Shown here: in pieces, positions 6,793 through 49,691 of the stretch
Layout of the letters: every line of letters begins with the position of its first letter
How positions within the stretch are numbered: position 1 is the stretch's first letter
From: Nitrospirota bacterium
GTDB taxonomy: Bacteria; Nitrospirota; 9FT-COMBO-42-15; HDB-SIOI813
DNA length: 64,000 nucleotides
Assembly (NCBI GenBank): GCA_020851375.1
Contig: JADZCV010000004.1
Span: 1 to 64,000 of the forward strand
Direction: 5' to 3'
The notes under the pieces: generated by a model
Told to the model about the DNA's origin: nothing
The model's input: the letters and a program-made list of their open reading frames with translations, nothing else
Database searches by the model: none
Translations under genes and position numbers: made by a program

Positions 6793-7395
6793 ATGCCTTC
6801 TTATATCGTCGCGATAACAGGGGCAAGCGGGGCGGTCTACGGAACGCGCCTGATATCCTTCCTGGTCAAACATGGTTTTACTGTGCATCTGACTGTTACT
6901 AAAGAGGCATGGTGGATACTTAAAGATGAGGCAGAATTGTTTGCTGAAGGCACAGAAGATGAAATCAGATCATCATTGTGCGGCTATTTTGGGGTGTCAC
7001 GCGAGATGCTTTATTATTATGATGAAAATAACATGAAGTCACCCATATCCAGCGGTTCGTTTCGCAGTAATGGAATGATTATTGTCCCTTGTTCTATGAA
7101 AACAGTTGCATCAGTAGCATCCGGAGTATCGTCTAATCTTGTCGGACGTTCTGCCGATGTTATATTAAAGGAGCAGAGGAAGCTGATTATAGTTCCGAGA
7201 GAAACGCCATTGAACACGGTGCATCTTAAAAACCTCCTTACCCTTTCAGAAATGGGAGTTCATATTATCCCGGCCATGCCGGCCTTCTACAACAAGCCGG
7301 AGACCATAGCAGATATGGTGGCATTTATTGTAGGACGCATTCTTGATGCGCTCTCTATTGACAATCAAATATACAGCAGATGGGATGGGAGGTAA
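6793..7395 (+). CDS. ubiX: Flavin prenyltransferase UbiX
   Basis: Makes prenylated FMN, the cofactor of UbiD-type decarboxylases. The flavoprotein signature IVAITGASGAVYG is at the N terminus. The family motif region VPCSMKTVASVASG carries the cysteine and serine residues, and LIIVPRETPLNTVHL is diagnostic. The length of 200 aa fits. It is last in the lpt-rpoN-rapZ run, and a promoter for the next operon follows. No ubiD lies in the window, so the partner decarboxylase is unknown. Confidence 0.92.
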   Translation: MPSYIVAITGASGAVYGTRLISFLVKHGFTVHLTVTKEAWWILKDEAELFAEGTEDEIRSSLCGYFGVSREMLYYYDENNMKSPISSGSFRSNGMIIVPCSMKTVASVASGVSSNLVGRSADVILKEQRKLIIVPRETPLNTVHLKNLLTLSEMGVHIIPAMPAFYNKPETIADMVAFIVGRILDALSIDNQIYSRWDGR

Positions 7396-7401
7396 AAGGT
7401 C

Positions 7402-7430
7402 TTGACTACTGTAATTATATTAAGTATAGT
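7402..7430 (+). promoter_or_regulatory. Strong sigma-70 promoter for the pil operon
   Basis: TTGACT (7402-7407) and TATAGT (7425-7430) are separated by exactly 17 bp in an AT-rich stretch just after ubiX. A leader of about 100 nt follows before the first gene. Confidence 0.7.
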
Positions 7431-7451
7431 TACTATAGTTTTTAATCCGGA

Positions 7452-7528
7452 GGGTTCAGGTCAAGCCCCTTTGTCTCCGCAATTCAATGAATGCCTGAAC
7501 CCATAAATAAAATATTGCCGGAGACAAA
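7452..7528 (+). promoter_or_regulatory. Leader with two interleaved inverted repeats (possible pseudoknot)
   Basis: A 9-bp perfect inverted repeat (7452-7460 GGGTTCAGG with 7494-7502 CCTGAACCC) interleaves with a 10-bp perfect one (7470-7479 TTTGTCTCCG with 7519-7528 CGGAGACAAA) in A-B-A'-B' order. That is the topology of an H-type pseudoknot or of two mutually exclusive hairpins. It ends 12 nt before the first start codon. I match it to no known riboswitch class. Confidence 0.5.
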
Positions 7529-7540
7529 TCATTCTGAGAG

Positions 7541-7732
7541 ATGAGCAAAGACAAGAAGTATTATGCAAATGACATATGCAAACTATTTGATATCTCAAAA
7601 GCAACACTGTTTCGGTGGGAGAATGCAGGATTGATTTCGAATATCAGCAGGGACTGGCGTAACTGGCGCATTTACAGCAGGGACAACATTGAAGAAATAA
7701 GACAGATTATTCATTCAAAGGAAAAGAGATAA
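7541..7732 (+). CDS. Small MerR-like helix-turn-helix protein
   Basis: A 63-residue protein that is essentially one MerR-type winged HTH (YYANDICKLFDISKATLFRW, then WRIYSRDNIEEIRQII). No effector or dimerisation domain follows. It is first in the pil operon, 4 nt before pilM, so it is a candidate local regulator of pilus genes. The ribosome binding site is poor: GAGAG directly abuts the ATG, which may fit the structured leader just upstream. The DNA target is unknown. Confidence 0.75.
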   Translation: MSKDKKYYANDICKLFDISKATLFRWENAGLISNISRDWRNWRIYSRDNIEEIRQIIHSKEKR

Positions 7733-7736
7733 AGTA

Positions 7737-8798
7737 ATGTTCTTCCGCAAAAAGAAAGCTGCGATCGGCATAGATATTGGTTCAAGTTCAATTAAAGTAA
7801 TTCAGTTGACAGAATCAGAGGGGCGTTATACTCTTAACAAATTTGGAATTGCCGCACTGGCCCCTGAGATAATTGTTGACGGAACCGTGATGGATTCAGT
7901 AAGGTGTATTGAGACATTGCAGAATCTTATAAAGGAACAGGACATCACAATAAAGGATGCCGTTATATCCGTGTCCGGTAATTCAGTTATAGTAAAAAGA
8001 GTGACTTTGCCGCAGATGTCTGAAGATGAACTTGCTGAATCCATTAAATGGGAAGCAGAACAGTACATCCCCTTCGACATCAACGAAGTAAACATGGACT
8101 TTCAGATTCTGAATACTTTTACAGGCGCTGATGGAAAGCAGCAGATGAATGTCCTCCTGGCTGCTGTAAAGAAAGACAAGCTCACAGATTATTCTTCTCT
8201 TATTATTGAGGCAGGCCTGACCCCGGTAATAGTAGATATTGATTCATTTGCGATAGAGAATATGTATAACGCCAATTATGATATAAACGAGAATGAGACT
8301 GTTGCGCTCATTAACATAGGCGCCGGCATTACTAATATCAATATCCTGCAGGGGAGTATGTTTGCATTTACAAGAGATATCTCCATAGGCGGCAACAGAT
8401 ATACTGAATCCATACAAAAAGATCTCGGGCTTTCCTTTGATGATGCTGAAAAGATCAAGAAGGGAGAAACTGCTGAGGGTCCTGACACCTCTGACATTGA
8501 TTCAATCATCGAGAACGTCTCAACAGAGATTACAAGTGAGATTACAAGGTCTTTTGGTTACTTCAAGGCAACTATGGGGAGTGAGAACATTAACAAGGTG
8601 CTTCTCAGCGGAGGGTCGTCAAAGATACGGAATCTGAATTCGTTCCTGCAGGAGAGGCTTGAACTTCCTGTGGAATTTATTAATCCATTCAGAATGATTG
8701 ATATACCTCCTTCATTTGACTCGGATTATATCAATAGTATTGCCCCGCTTGCAGCTGTAGCTGTGGGACTTGGGCTAAGAAGGCTGGATAACAGATGA
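7737..8798 (+). CDS. pilM: Type IV pilus inner-membrane platform protein PilM
   Basis: Actin-like cytoplasmic ATPase fold that couples the pilus motor to PilN. The motif AIGIDIGSSSIKVIQL is the phosphate-1 region. WEAEQYIPFDINEV is typical of PilM, and LLSGGSSKIRNLNSFLQE is the second nucleotide-binding region. The length of 353 aa is usual. It overlaps pilN by 4 nt (ATGA). Confidence 0.94.
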   Translation: MFFRKKKAAIGIDIGSSSIKVIQLTESEGRYTLNKFGIAALAPEIIVDGTVMDSVRCIETLQNLIKEQDITIKDAVISVSGNSVIVKRVTLPQMSEDELAESIKWEAEQYIPFDINEVNMDFQILNTFTGADGKQQMNVLLAAVKKDKLTDYSSLIIEAGLTPVIVDIDSFAIENMYNANYDINENETVALINIGAGITNINILQGSMFAFTRDISIGGNRYTESIQKDLGLSFDDAEKIKKGETAEGPDTSDIDSIIENVSTEITSEITRSFGYFKATMGSENINKVLLSGGSSKIRNLNSFLQERLELPVEFINPFRMIDIPPSFDSDYINSIAPLAAVAVGLGLRRLDNR

Positions 8799-9358
8799 TT
8801 AAAATAAACCTTCTTCTTACAAAGAAATCAAAGGGAGGTGTTGTAAATCTGAAGTTTGGAGTGCCATCTTCAGCCCTGTTTGTGATCATATCCGTTATTG
8901 TTGTTATTTTGCTGGAAGGATACACATGGTACTGGCTCAGCAGCACGAAATCATATCTTACTGCAGAAAAACAGACCCTTGAGGTGCGCCTGGCGGATTT
9001 AAGAGAAAAGGTCAAAGAGGTCGAGAGTTATGAAAAGGACAAAAAACTTTTTGAGCAGAAGATTTCTATCATCCAGAATTTGAAGAAGTCGCAAAAGGGG
9101 CCTGTAAGGGTATTGGATGAGGTCAGCAGGATGCTGCCTGAAAGGGTCTGGCTTATTTCAATAAGAGAAAAAGACGGAAGTATAATCGTCACAGGCGCAG
9201 GAATGACAAATGATGACATAGTAAAGTATGTGAACAATCTTAAATCATCCAGGTTATTTCAGAATGTCCAGTTAACAGAATCGAGGCAGGTTGTTGACAC
9301 AGGTATTCCTGTGTACAACTTTAATCTTGTATTTAATATTAACCTTGAGTCGGTATAA
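8795..9358 (+). CDS. pilN: Type IV pilus assembly protein PilN
   Basis: Bitopic inner-membrane protein of the alignment complex. The short cytoplasmic tail MIKINLL is the conserved PilM-binding segment. A transmembrane helix (about residues 25-42) and a coiled coil (50-95) precede a periplasmic ferredoxin-like domain with LPERVWLISI. The length of 187 aa is normal. Start and order (pilM-N-O-P-Q) support the assignment. Confidence 0.92.
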   Translation: MIKINLLLTKKSKGGVVNLKFGVPSSALFVIISVIVVILLEGYTWYWLSSTKSYLTAEKQTLEVRLADLREKVKEVESYEKDKKLFEQKISIIQNLKKSQKGPVRVLDEVSRMLPERVWLISIREKDGSIIVTGAGMTNDDIVKYVNNLKSSRLFQNVQLTESRQVVDTGIPVYNFNLVFNINLESV

Positions 9359-9363
9359 TAATT

Positions 9364-9933
9364 ATGAACTTTGAGTCAATCGACAATATGCCACGTTCAC
9401 AAAAGATCATCCTGATTGTCCTTTTGTTTGCGATAATCATAGGTGGTTTCGTTTATTTCATCTTCCTGCCAGGCAAGGCGCAGGTTGATGTCCTGTCTAA
9501 AAGTGTTTCTGATCTTAACCATGAAATCATGATTAATGAGGTAAAATTAAGGAGGCTTGATCAGCTCAAGATGGAGAATGCACAACTGCAGGCGCAGCTA
9601 AATGCACTGCGGGCACAGCTTCCGGCAGAGGCAGAAGTGTCAGGATTGCTTAAACAGATTTCTGATTTGAGCATCGAATCAGGATTAAGTGTCAAGTTAT
9701 GGAAGCCGGGAGCGCGTAAGAAAGATCCATCCGGCCTGTATACTGAAATTCCGGTGGATGTAGAGGTATCTGGAGGATATCATGCACTTGGCTCCTTCTT
9801 TGACAAGGTAAGCAAGCTGCCCAGGATTGTTAATATTACAGGATTGAATATGGATTCAGCAAAGGTTTCAGGGCGAACTGTTTTTATTCAGGATAAATTT
9901 GTTGCCACTACATTTGCAGCAGAGGAGAAATAA
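9364..9933 (+). CDS. pilO: Type IV pilus assembly protein PilO
   Basis: Inner-membrane partner of PilN in the pilus alignment complex. One transmembrane helix (about residues 14-33, KIILIVLLFAIIIGGFVYFI) is followed by a coiled coil (about 40-85) and a periplasmic domain with VSGGYHALGSFFDKVSKLPR, a common PilO signature. The length of 189 aa is usual. Confidence 0.92.
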   Translation: MNFESIDNMPRSQKIILIVLLFAIIIGGFVYFIFLPGKAQVDVLSKSVSDLNHEIMINEVKLRRLDQLKMENAQLQAQLNALRAQLPAEAEVSGLLKQISDLSIESGLSVKLWKPGARKKDPSGLYTEIPVDVEVSGGYHALGSFFDKVSKLPRIVNITGLNMDSAKVSGRTVFIQDKFVATTFAAEEK

Positions 9934-9949
9934 TATTAATTTAACTAAT

Positions 9950-10480
9950 ATGAAGACGCTTATTATAGTTGTCATATTATTTGTTTTATCCGGTTGTTCA
10001 GAACAGCCGGTGAATCCTGTCCAACAGCCCCCTGTTTCAAAGGCATCTGCCGGAGCCGGACAGGACAAGGATAGTGCTGCATCAACTGCCGGGACAGAGA
10101 TGACAGCAGACGCACGTTTAGAGTATACTTACATGCCTGCCGGACGGAGGGACCCGTTCAAATCTCTTATTCTGGGATTAAAGGAGAAAAAGGTCGCCGG
10201 GCTTACTCCACTGCAGCTTAGGGGCCTGAGTGAATTAAAGGTTATAGGTATTATGTGGGACGGCAAGGCCTATACTGCCATGATAGAAACCCCTGATGGA
10301 AAGGGGTATCTGATTAAGGAAGGTGTGCTTGTAGGACCTGAAGGAGGAGTTGTCACCAGAATCTCAGCGGATGCTGTGACGATTGAAGAGAAATTCTCAG
10401 ATATTTATGGAAGGAAGCAAACGAAAAAGACTGTATTGGGACTCCGTCCCAAAGAGGAGGCGGTGGATGAAGATATTTAA
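9950..10480 (+). CDS. pilP: Type IV pilus lipoprotein PilP
   Basis: Periplasmic lipoprotein that links PilNO to the PilQ secretin. The start at 9950 gives a classic lipoprotein signal (MKTLIIVVILFVLSGC); an upstream in-frame start would put non-signal sequence in front. A proline/alanine linker leads to the folded domain with GRRDPFKSL and LSELKVIGIMW, both typical of PilP. The 3' end overlaps pilQ by 14 nt. Confidence 0.9.
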   Translation: MKTLIIVVILFVLSGCSEQPVNPVQQPPVSKASAGAGQDKDSAASTAGTEMTADARLEYTYMPAGRRDPFKSLILGLKEKKVAGLTPLQLRGLSELKVIGIMWDGKAYTAMIETPDGKGYLIKEGVLVGPEGGVVTRISADAVTIEEKFSDIYGRKQTKKTVLGLRPKEEAVDEDI

Positions 10481-12749
10481 TTTCAAGGCGGCTGTTTGTG
10501 TGTCACTCATAGCCGGATTTATTGTTGTCAGCCCGGCTTTGGGCGACCGGGTCAGTGCTTCTGAATATACCGGGGATGTGCAAACGCCTGACACGGCGGT
10601 ATTGAAGAAGATTGACATTGTTGAGTTGCCGGCAAGTACGCAGATTCTGCTTGAAGCAGGAAATTCGTTAAAATATACATCCTTTACCCTGATGGACCCT
10701 CCAAGATTGGTTATAGATCTGCCAGGTGTTTCACTCGGTGAATTTACCAAACCTATTACAGTTGGCAAAGGGGCAGTTGTGGAGATCGTCCCGGTAGAGG
10801 CGGATCTGCCTTTAAGGGTTGCCAGATTAAGCATCAAGCTTGCAATTGACGTAAAGGATCCCCAGATATTCAGTAAATCAAATGTACTTATAATTGAAAT
10901 ACCATCAACAATGCCTGCCAGAGGCGCTGATAAGGCGACTGCCGTTCCTCCGCTTAATATGGTCAGGGAACTGATATTCAATGAGACCGGCGATAAGAGC
11001 AGCATCAGGATTGTTGCAGATAATGAAATCAATGCTGATGCTTTTATAGTCGAAGGAGACAAGCTTGTTGTTGACGTGAAAGATTCGGATAATTCGATAA
11101 AATCTTCCGAGAAGGTTGTGGAAAGCAGTCTTATTTCTAAAATCAGGATTGGAAATCATCCGGCGCCGTCCCATAAAGTCAGATTTGTTGCAGATCTCAA
11201 GAAGGCAGTCAAGTATGAAGTAAACAAACAGGGCAGGGAAATAACAATAGATGTTTATTCAAAAGGGGATAAGGGACGACCCAAGGTTCAGTTGGCATCA
11301 ATTGCTCCGGTACCTGTTGGCGGAGATGGTAATCCCGGAGATACTAATTCTGCTGTAAGCACCACAGAAAAAACTCCTGCTGCAAGTGAAAAAAGTGAAG
11401 AAGTTGTGGCACCGAAGACTGCCGTTCAACCTGTTGCTGAACAGCCGCAGCCGCCTAAAGAAAAAAAGAGTGCAACGCCTTCACAGACGGCAAATGTCAC
11501 ACCGGAGAAGAAGAATGGTCAGAACAGCGTCAAGAAGGTATCACTTGATTTTCAGGATGCTGATATCGTAAATGTGCTGAGACTTCTCGCTGAGGTCAGC
11601 AAACTCAATATGATAATCGGCGACAATGTGAAAGGTAAAATAACCATCAAGATGCTTGATGTGCCCTGGGACCAGGCCCTCAACATCATCCTGAAAATGA
11701 AAGGACTCGGCAAGATATACGAGAACAACGTGGTCAGGATTGATACACTGGTAAACATAGCTCAGCAACAGGAAGAGGAGGCACGGGCCAAGGATGCCAT
11801 GGTTAAGGCAGAGGACTTGTCTACAAAGATAATTCCTGTTAATTATGCGAAGGCAAAGGAGGTAGCCGACTCTATAAAGAAGACACTCAGTTCAAGGGGG
11901 GATATGACAATTGATGATCGCACCAATACCCTGATAGTTAAAGATGTGGCAGATAAACATGAAGAGATTGTCCAGCTTCTTAAAACACTTGACAGGCCGA
12001 CACCTCAGGTTTTGATCGAGGCAAGGATTGTGCAGGCAGACTCCAACTTTGCAAAAGATCTCGGGGTGCAATGGGGCGGCAATTATACCTCCAGCCCGGG
12101 TGATTACACTATGAGTGTCGTATCCGGCCCATCAGGGACAGTAGGCGCACCTACAACAGGTTTTGCCGTTAATCTGCCTGCAAGTGGTCTTGCGGGATCA
12201 AAAGGGAGCGTTGGATTTACAATAGGAAAGACTGTTGGAGATGCGTTTAACCTTGATCTCAGGCTGTCTGCCGGAGAGACTAAGGGATTGACAAAGATAC
12301 TGTCTGCTCCAAAGATTGCAACCCTTGACAACAGGGAAGCAATTATTCAACAGGGCGAATCCATTCCATACAAGACCTATTCTCAGGAAGGTACGAAGAC
12401 AGAGTTTATTGATGCGACCCTGACTCTTAAAGTAATACCAAAGGTTACGCCTGATGGCCATATATCAATGAATATTAAAATTACCAAGAACCGTCAGGGG
12501 TCAATAGTAGTTGAAGGTACCCCGAGCATCAACAAAAAAGAGGCGACAACAGAGGTGCTCGTAAGAGATGGAGAAACGACTGTAATAGGCGGCATCTACG
12601 AATTGTCTGATACGGATAACGAAAATATGATCCCGTGGATACACAAGGTGCCTGTGCTTGGATGGTTATTCAAGAATACATCGAAATCAAATATAAAGAG
12701 CGAATTACTAATCTTTATTACACCTAAGATCATACCTGTAACTTCATGA
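10467..12749 (+). CDS. pilQ: Type IV pilus secretin PilQ
   Basis: Outer-membrane secretin through which the pilus exits. I chose the ATG at 10467 because GAGGAGG at 10454-10460 lies 6 nt upstream and a signal peptide follows (AAVCVSLIAGFIVVSPALG). N-terminal AMIN domains (about residues 45-260, LVIDLPGV and LVVDVKDS) precede a low-complexity linker (about 290-360), an STN/N0 domain (LDFQDADIVNVLRLLAEV), an N1 domain (INYAKAKEV-type) and the secretin core with VLIEARIV and VPVLGWLFK. It is about 760 aa long and the last of the pil genes. Confidence 0.94.
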   Translation: MKIFNFKAAVCVSLIAGFIVVSPALGDRVSASEYTGDVQTPDTAVLKKIDIVELPASTQILLEAGNSLKYTSFTLMDPPRLVIDLPGVSLGEFTKPITVGKGAVVEIVPVEADLPLRVARLSIKLAIDVKDPQIFSKSNVLIIEIPSTMPARGADKATAVPPLNMVRELIFNETGDKSSIRIVADNEINADAFIVEGDKLVVDVKDSDNSIKSSEKVVESSLISKIRIGNHPAPSHKVRFVADLKKAVKYEVNKQGREITIDVYSKGDKGRPKVQLASIAPVPVGGDGNPGDTNSAVSTTEKTPAASEKSEEVVAPKTAVQPVAEQPQPPKEKKSATPSQTANVTPEKKNGQNSVKKVSLDFQDADIVNVLRLLAEVSKLNMIIGDNVKGKITIKMLDVPWDQALNIILKMKGLGKIYENNVVRIDTLVNIAQQQEEEARAKDAMVKAEDLSTKIIPVNYAKAKEVADSIKKTLSSRGDMTIDDRTNTLIVKDVADKHEEIVQLLKTLDRPTPQVLIEARIVQADSNFAKDLGVQWGGNYTSSPGDYTMSVVSGPSGTVGAPTTGFAVNLPASGLAGSKGSVGFTIGKTVGDAFNLDLRLSAGETKGLTKILSAPKIATLDNREAIIQQGESIPYKTYSQEGTKTEFIDATLTLKVIPKVTPDGHISMNIKITKNRQGSIVVEGTPSINKKEATTEVLVRDGETTVIGGIYELSDTDNENMIPWIHKVPVLGWLFKNTSKSNIKSELLIFITPKIIPVTS

Positions 12750-24809: not shown

Positions 24810-25463
24810 CACGAGCCGTTTCTTCAGACCGCTGATATACGGAATAGTCCCAAGCACAGGGATGCCCGACAGTGTCTCTACCGTATCCTGAAAGGTCATC
24901 TCTGCAAGAGTGCCATTTCCGGTATTTCGGTTATTTATGACAATCCCGGTTACAGGTATCTTTTTCATTGTCAGACAGCTTATCGTCAGCATAGTGTGAT
25001 TAAGGTATCCGAGATGGGGGCTGGTTACCAGAATTACAGGCAGATTTAGCAGCCTGATCAGGTCTGCAACATAGAAGTCATCCCTGACAGGCACGAGCAC
25101 CCCGCCGATTCCTTCAACGATCATGTAATCATGTCTTTTGCACAATACCTTAAAATAGTCTGAAATCAAATCAACATCAATGACGATCTTTTGTTTTGTG
25201 GCGGCTACATATGGGGCCACCGCTTCTGTGAACATGTAGGGGGTGATGAGTTCTATAGGGTCATCAGACGATGCTGACCCGGCCAGCATGAGTGAATCAT
25301 CGGGGGTTAGATGGCCTTCCCGGGTTCTGCACCCTGTGTGAACAGGCTTCATTACGCCGACATTAATGCCCCGCGACCTCAAGGCAGCAGCTATGCCTGC
25401 AGCAACAGCAGTCTTTCCAACGCCGGTGTCTGTACCGGTAACAAATATGCCACGTTTTTTCAC
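24744..25463 (-). CDS. bioD: Dethiobiotin synthetase
   Basis: ATP-dependent ring closure of DAPA to dethiobiotin. P-loop GIFVTGTDTGVGKTAVA is at the N terminus; MKPVHTGC, EAVAPYVAA and MIVEGIGGVLVPV are the family's substrate and metal segments. I chose the GTG at 25463, which gives 239 aa starting just before the P-loop strand. A TTG at 25481 would add repeat-derived residues (NGDFR). Last gene of the biotin operon; convergent overlap with thiE. Confidence 0.93.
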   Translation of the reverse strand: MKKRGIFVTGTDTGVGKTAVAAGIAAALRSRGINVGVMKPVHTGCRTREGHLTPDDSLMLAGSASSDDPIELITPYMFTEAVAPYVAATKQKIVIDVDLISDYFKVLCKRHDYMIVEGIGGVLVPVRDDFYVADLIRLLNLPVILVTSPHLGYLNHTMLTISCLTMKKIPVTGIVINNRNTGNGTLAEMTFQDTVETLSGIPVLGTIPYISGLKKRLVSDALNVPDPFLKLADTLFDVM

Positions 25464-25603
25464 TCGAAAATCCCCGTTCAAATCCCCCCTGTCCCCCTTT
25501 AGTAAAGAAGGGAACTAATTTCCCCCTTTGGAAAAGGGGGACTAAGGGGGATTTTCATCTGTCTTTTGTGAGCCCTGGCTCACGACGGTTCATCCGTAAA
25601 CCT
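25464..25603 (-). repeat. Composite repeat unit between the SDR gene and bioD
   Basis: Read on the minus strand it opens GATGAACCGTCGTGAGCC, as in the other units, and ends GGGGATTTTCGA just before the bioD GTG. Its middle is replaced by a second repeat family, a C/G-rich inverted pair (AGTCCCCCTTTTCC and AAGGGGGA), also seen at 45205-45245. The unit contains no gene. Confidence 0.75.
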
Positions 25604-26326: not shown

Positions 26327-26483
26327 TCGAAAATACTCCCAAGTACCAGTCATTCCCACGGAACCTGTCCCCGCAGGATTTTTCACCCGTCATTCCCGCT
26401 TACGCGGGAATGACGTTTTCATGAACCTTGTTGAGCCTGAGACTCATGACGGGTCATCTGAAAATGCCCCTGCATACCCGCCA
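26327..26483 (-). repeat. Composite repeat unit between bioF and the SDR gene
   Basis: Minus-strand reading: GGGGCATTTTCAGATGACCC, a GTCATGAGTCTCAGGCTCAAC block, the GTCATTCCCGCGTAAGCGGG palindrome, a CTGCGGGGACAGGTT block, and the right end GGGAGTATTTTCGA that abuts the SDR start codon. Same order as the aroK unit. Confidence 0.8.
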
Positions 26484-49603: not shown

Positions 49604-49691
49604 GCACCTTCTATCAAGGCAAACTATCCGTGAGGATAGGGCGCAACGCCAAGGGGCTTTTAGAAAAAAGCAAGCCGGGCTGCCGAGGTGC
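49604..49691 (+). ncRNA. GEMM / cyclic di-GMP-I type riboswitch aptamer
   Basis: P1 is GCACCT (49604-49609) with AGGTGC (49686-49691). The conserved AAGGCAAAC is at 49616-49624. A hairpin CTATCC-GTGA-GGATAG (49624-49639) has a GNRA tetraloop. The core GGGCGCAACGCC corresponds to the family's GGGACGCAAAGCC. A second hairpin has GCTTTT/AAAAGC arms, and the 3' core is GCCGGGCTGCCGA. This order is the GEMM-I pattern. The ligand may be c-di-GMP or, in the Ib subgroup, cGAMP. Confidence 0.85.

Follow-up and report, generated by a model that had tools for sequence, protein, structure and literature searches.

Interleaved inverted repeats in the leader of a Nitrospirota pil operon: a candidate lineage-specific cis-regulatory RNA

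The pil locus, its promoter and its MerR-like first gene

The type IV pilus operon described here lies in a 64,000-nucleotide stretch of DNA from a Nitrospirota bacterium, referred to below as the window. Three genomes of the genus were examined: G000, the assembly whose contig C4 contains the window, and two congeners, G001 and G002. The first gene of the operon is a small MerR-like open reading frame at 7541, followed by pilM at 7737 and then by the remaining pil genes, among which pilP is assigned by position only. The promoter and genes are as follows.

7402-7430, plus strand: sigma-70-type promoter, TTGACT-17-TATAGT, matching 10 of 12 consensus bases
7423-7439, plus strand: putative operator of the MerR-like protein, with 9-bp-spaced half-sites AGTATAGTT / ACTATAGTT over the -10 box
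7541-7732, plus strand: MerR-like gene, 63 aa, DNA-binding domain only and BldC-sized (Pfam MerR_1, 8.9e-08; 15-member alignment)
7737-8798, plus strand: pilM (Pfam PilM_2, 2e-75)
8795-12749, plus strand: pilN, pilO, a small ORF at the pilP position and a PilQ-like secretin (Pfam PilN, PilO, Secretin/AMIN)

This arrangement extends well beyond the genus. The MerR-like gene is present in 63 of 148 related genomes, the weakest matches being generic MerR proteins, and a PilM motif follows it within about 280 bases in 26 of 30 fetched loci. TTGAC[AT] occurs upstream in 29 of these 30 loci, the window counted among them. Downstream of this element, the pil promoters of most relatives phylum-wide carry ACTATA/AGTATA half-sites that keep strictly to a 9-bp register, at offsets of 11/12, 20/21 and 29/30 from the -35 box, shifted by one in one locus.

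The spacing recalls BldC, a 68-residue MerR-like protein that binds 9-bp direct repeats head to tail (PMC5859096). Like BldC, the pil-associated protein is a MerR-like winged helix and little else (63 aa, MerR_1, against about 68 aa), and its own promoter carries 9-bp-spaced repeats that are head-to-tail at the sequence level. The half-sites differ, being ACTATA/AGTATA here and AATTXXXX(C) in BldC. A PDB profile search with the 63-aa protein matched MerR-family chains, none of them named BldC, so the relationship is one of resemblance rather than membership. The pil promoter repeats thus look like a putative BldC-type autoregulatory operator. A wider regulon was rejected, as genomes of the family each contain just a few instances of the 9-bp repeat pattern, mostly no more than the reversed control gives. 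The phylum-wide pairing of a BldC-like operator with a small MerR-like gene heading the pilM operon is the more general result of this analysis and offers a testable regulatory module.

Interleaved repeats and their predicted folds

Two perfect inverted repeats in A-B-A'-B' order occupy the leader between the promoter and the first gene. An earlier note on this DNA had described them, placing them behind a near-consensus promoter and ahead of a gene with a poor Shine-Dalgarno sequence, and each of these points is borne out: both arms of each repeat were verified, and the GGAG at 7520-7523 sits within B', 17 nt from the ATG at 7541. The elements of the leader are listed below.

7450-7471, plus strand: H1, a local hairpin competing with A:A'; in the consensus, GAGGG 7450-7454 pairs with 7467-7471
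7452-7460, plus strand: A, 5' arm GGGTTCAGG, extending to U7461, which pairs with G7493; identical in G002
7470-7483 (perfect repeat 7470-7479), plus strand: B, 5' arm TTTGTCTCCG with inward extension CAAT; A7481 is U in G002, compensated at 7516
7493-7502 (perfect repeat 7494-7502), plus strand: A', 3' arm (G)CCTGAACCC; G002 differs by three substitutions, each compatible with pairing
7514-7528 (perfect repeat 7519-7528), plus strand: B', 3' arm ATTG-(bulge C7518)-CGGAGACAAA; contains GGAG, and GGAGACA is also present in G001

Shuffling indicates how readily such a pattern arises. An interleaved perfect 9+9 pair appeared in 1 of 20,000 dinucleotide shuffles of the 145-nt intergenic region and somewhere in 43 of 1,203 shuffles (3.6%) of the whole 64 kb, while the real window holds two such pairs. 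The arrangement is therefore moderately unlikely by chance: improbable within the pil leader, yet only a mild surprise when the whole window is scanned. The leader element is credible because it is retained in G002. The second pair, at 26349-26454, overlaps a TCATTCCCGC..GCGGGAATGA palindrome; palindromes of this kind are commonly found as dispersed repeats.

Folding of the window sequence extends both helices. CAAU at 7480-7483 pairs with AUUG at 7514-7517, bringing helix B to 14 bp with one bulge at C7518, and the A helix gains the U7461-G7493 pair. The RNAalifold consensus contains helix B, including its covarying pair, together with H1. Since H1 shares bases with A, H1 and A:A' are mutually exclusive, whereas A:A' can coexist with B in an H-type pseudoknot. 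The earlier note had proposed either a pseudoknot or two alternative hairpins; the pseudoknot stands as a structure that A and B can form together, but the hairpin alternative does not hold in that form, as A and B do not exclude each other and the competitor of A:A' is H1.

In folds of the growing transcript from both species, the local hairpin forms first and A:A' follows after A' emerges. Once B' is completed in G002, the fold switches to H1 plus B, and A:A' is disfavoured there unless pseudoknotted. The full-length window leader is near balance, with constrained energies of -26.5 (A) and -26.2 (B) that come from a program other than a dedicated pseudoknot one. Overall folding energies are unexceptional, with z of -1.3 and -0.4 for the whole leader and -2.0 for the 84-nt core. 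In the manner of H-type pseudoknot leaders generally, the pil leader combines A-B-A'-B' order, helices of 9-10 bp (A) and 10-14 bp (B) in the window, a position beside the start codon, and loops of about 9, 14 and 16 nt, long enough to allow co-formation. It differs from them in having no conserved aptamer or ligand, in its restriction to two species, and in its long helix B with a large loop.

Conservation in one sister species and distribution among relatives

The A-to-A' core (7447-7503) shows selection-like conservation between G000 and its sister species G002. It is identical at 49 of 57 positions (86%), against a mean identity of 0.58 at third codon positions of syntenic genes, and several intergenic regions between the two genomes cannot be aligned at all. 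The corresponding binomial P is 6e-7 for a neutral identity of 0.55 and 6e-5 for 0.62. Among all 57-nt segments, mostly coding, about 13% equal or exceed the core in conservation, so its conservation is at the ordinary level of functional sequence rather than extreme.

Pairing is retained as well. The stem structure was derived from the window alone and then transferred to G002 through alignment A3, where 23 of 24 pairs survive through seven stem substitutions. The pair A7481-U7516 becomes U-A, a double, compensatory change; G-C becomes G-U at 7452-7502, 7459-7495 and 7479-7519, and U-G becomes U-A at 7461-7493, all with pairing preserved; only the terminal pair 7470-7528 is broken. With substitutions placed randomly in the stems, this retention has P 0.0016-0.019, depending on transition bias; with the substituted positions held fixed, P is 0.02-0.30. 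Substitution in stems versus unpaired positions gives a Fisher P of 0.25, and conservation extends to the unpaired parts of the core. Because two sequences carry the element, covariation rests on one double change. Covariation among relatives, which the earlier note had put forward as a check, is thus partly present, as one compensatory and four one-sided pairing-preserving changes but only one covarying pair in one relative, and it is suggestive, not decisive, for a structured leader.

The pattern of change also bears on the least unlikely of the rival explanations, in which the core is a DNA-level or sequence-specific site (the operator of another regulator, or a leader sequence to which a protein binds, for example a CsrA site of the GGA type) and its complementarity is secondary. 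Such a site would fit the equal conservation of 5' arms, intervening loops and 3' arms, the position of the core directly downstream of the promoter, and the retention of GGAGACA in G001 without its partner. The 3'-arm changes, however, are nearly all of the G-U kind that RNA pairing tolerates, joined by the A-U to U-A double swap; G-U gives a DNA dyad no gain, so these changes count against one. A short leader peptide that controls the operon by attenuation is a far more improbable rival. Its frame, 11 codons from a TTG at 7471, is open in both species (MSPQFNECLNP and MSPLFNEYLNL), but second codon positions take most of the changes, which are non-synonymous and unlike those of coding sequence, the TTG start lacks a well-placed Shine-Dalgarno sequence, and no convincing terminator lies downstream. 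Intrinsic-terminator attenuation was itself rejected, a scan of the leader yielding just a weak hairpin of 5 bp that lacks a proper T run.

Beyond these two genomes the element is not found. Covariance model R1, across 396 Nitrospirota genomes, and model R2, among 10 genomes of the class, each recovered it in G000 and G002 only, and weak R1 matches in the 396 genomes (E 0.006-0.05) were fewer than the roughly 20 expected by chance. A and B are missing from the short leader of the third congener, G001, and from all other members of the family. G001 retains the operon and GGAGACA, which lies 17 nt from the ATG as in G000; the surrounding region can form a local UUAUGGA/UCCAUAG hairpin. Pil leaders of relatives are variable, most of them without long interleaved repeats. 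In G003 (L004:1400-1500), a 19-bp perfect hairpin of AAGGGGTCAAGGGGTCGAG-type repeats, unrelated to the element, occupies the equivalent leader position. The covariance-model searches thus reject broad conservation of the leader element: absent from G001, the rest of the family and the wider set of Nitrospirota genomes, it is not a broadly conserved switch. Of the conservation in relatives on which the earlier note had made its proposal depend, only the pairing kept in G002 was found. Known from two genomes only, the leader has the appearance of a small RNA regulator confined to one lineage, not of a new and widespread class of riboswitch.

So narrow a distribution lends something to the view that the feature is fortuitous or decaying: an insertion that the common ancestor of G000 and G002 acquired, functionless and complementary only by coincidence. 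The absence from G001 and all other relatives fits this view, as do the shuffling frequency of about 4% for 64 kb and the unrelated repeat-type hairpin at the same place in G003. We nevertheless consider it unlikely, given core identity far above that of third positions (86% vs 58%), the retained pairing, and a genome in which the element is single-copy. A dispersed repeat or mobile element was rejected too, there being no second genome copy, no target duplication, and no plasmid or viral matches above chance. Elsewhere in the window, about 100 bp at 25456-25553 match two separate, inverted places on the syntenic G002 contig, which suggests a dispersed repeat.

Known RNA families and the probable role of the leader

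Searches with Rfam 15 placed no family at or above its curated threshold on the G000 or G002 leader. A known RNA family is thereby ruled out, in agreement with the earlier note, which had matched the leader to no riboswitch class. RF01051 (c-di-GMP-I / GEMM-I) gave no match at 7390-7760 even at E up to 10, and none in the G002 leader. The nearest precedent is the cGAMP-sensing (GEMM-type) riboswitch upstream of pilM in Geobacter metallireducens (PMC9262584), which shares with the present case a structured leader before a pilM operon. That riboswitch has a c-di-GMP-I-type aptamer with a terminator, whereas the pil leader fails RF01051 and has no convincing terminator. No published report of the pil leader element was found in the literature searched. 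Riboswitch classes are recognized by an aptamer conserved with covariation over many species or loci; with two genomes of 396 and one covarying pair, the distribution of the leader is too narrow for naming a new RNA class.

The best explanation, which we hold with about even confidence, is that the pil operon begins with a structured 5' leader RNA, specific to this lineage, whose paired arms are the repeats. Its fold in the cell, its regulatory action and the manner of that action we infer from sequence and predicted structure. Helix B, at 14 bp with one bulge, would be the robust element, and B', ending 12 nt before the ATG, would bury the sole GGAG-like sequence in the vicinity of the start codon. 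Strand A would pair locally in H1 or, once A' is transcribed, with A' within the B loop, giving an H-type pseudoknot. During transcription H1 would be favoured first, A:A' next and B:B' last, the A:A' pseudoknot being optional at that final stage. The leader would thereby probably set how accessible the start of the operon is to ribosomes, or how stable the mRNA is there.

G002 also indicates which gene the leader serves. In that genome (L034:2560-2650, G002:C53) only about 70 nt of the MerR-like gene survive as a remnant, and decay has turned the second half-site over the -10 box from AGTATAGTTACTATAG into AGTATAGTTACAAGTG, while the promoter and leader persist. The leader is thus not only for control of the MerR-like gene, and it probably acts on the pil operon itself. 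On the simplest reading, it influences how the entire pil transcript is expressed, either by way of access to the start region or by way of RNA stability. This narrows the suggestion of the earlier note, an RNA switch on the MerR-like gene and pilMNOPQ: control of the MerR-like gene is not its whole purpose, and the pil operon stays as the probable target.

A signal-responsive switch is possible. The more ambitious proposal is improbable: that type IV pilus operons have a hitherto undescribed RNA switch of the pseudoknot kind, with A alternating between H1 and a pseudoknot with the helix-B loop, and that this switch has outlived the operon's MerR-like regulator. The leader is best filed as a candidate lineage-specific cis-regulatory leader RNA with pseudoknot potential. 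If functional, it would add an RNA layer to type IV pilus control in uncultured Nitrospirota, and would provide a natural case of a leader RNA outlasting both the protein regulator and half of that regulator's putative operator.

Within the window, RF01051 matches only at 49608-49687, a c-di-GMP-I riboswitch that precedes the gene for a 1944-aa protein in which DUF11 domains are repeated. Seven c-di-GMP-I riboswitches occur in the genome, three of them on contig C31.
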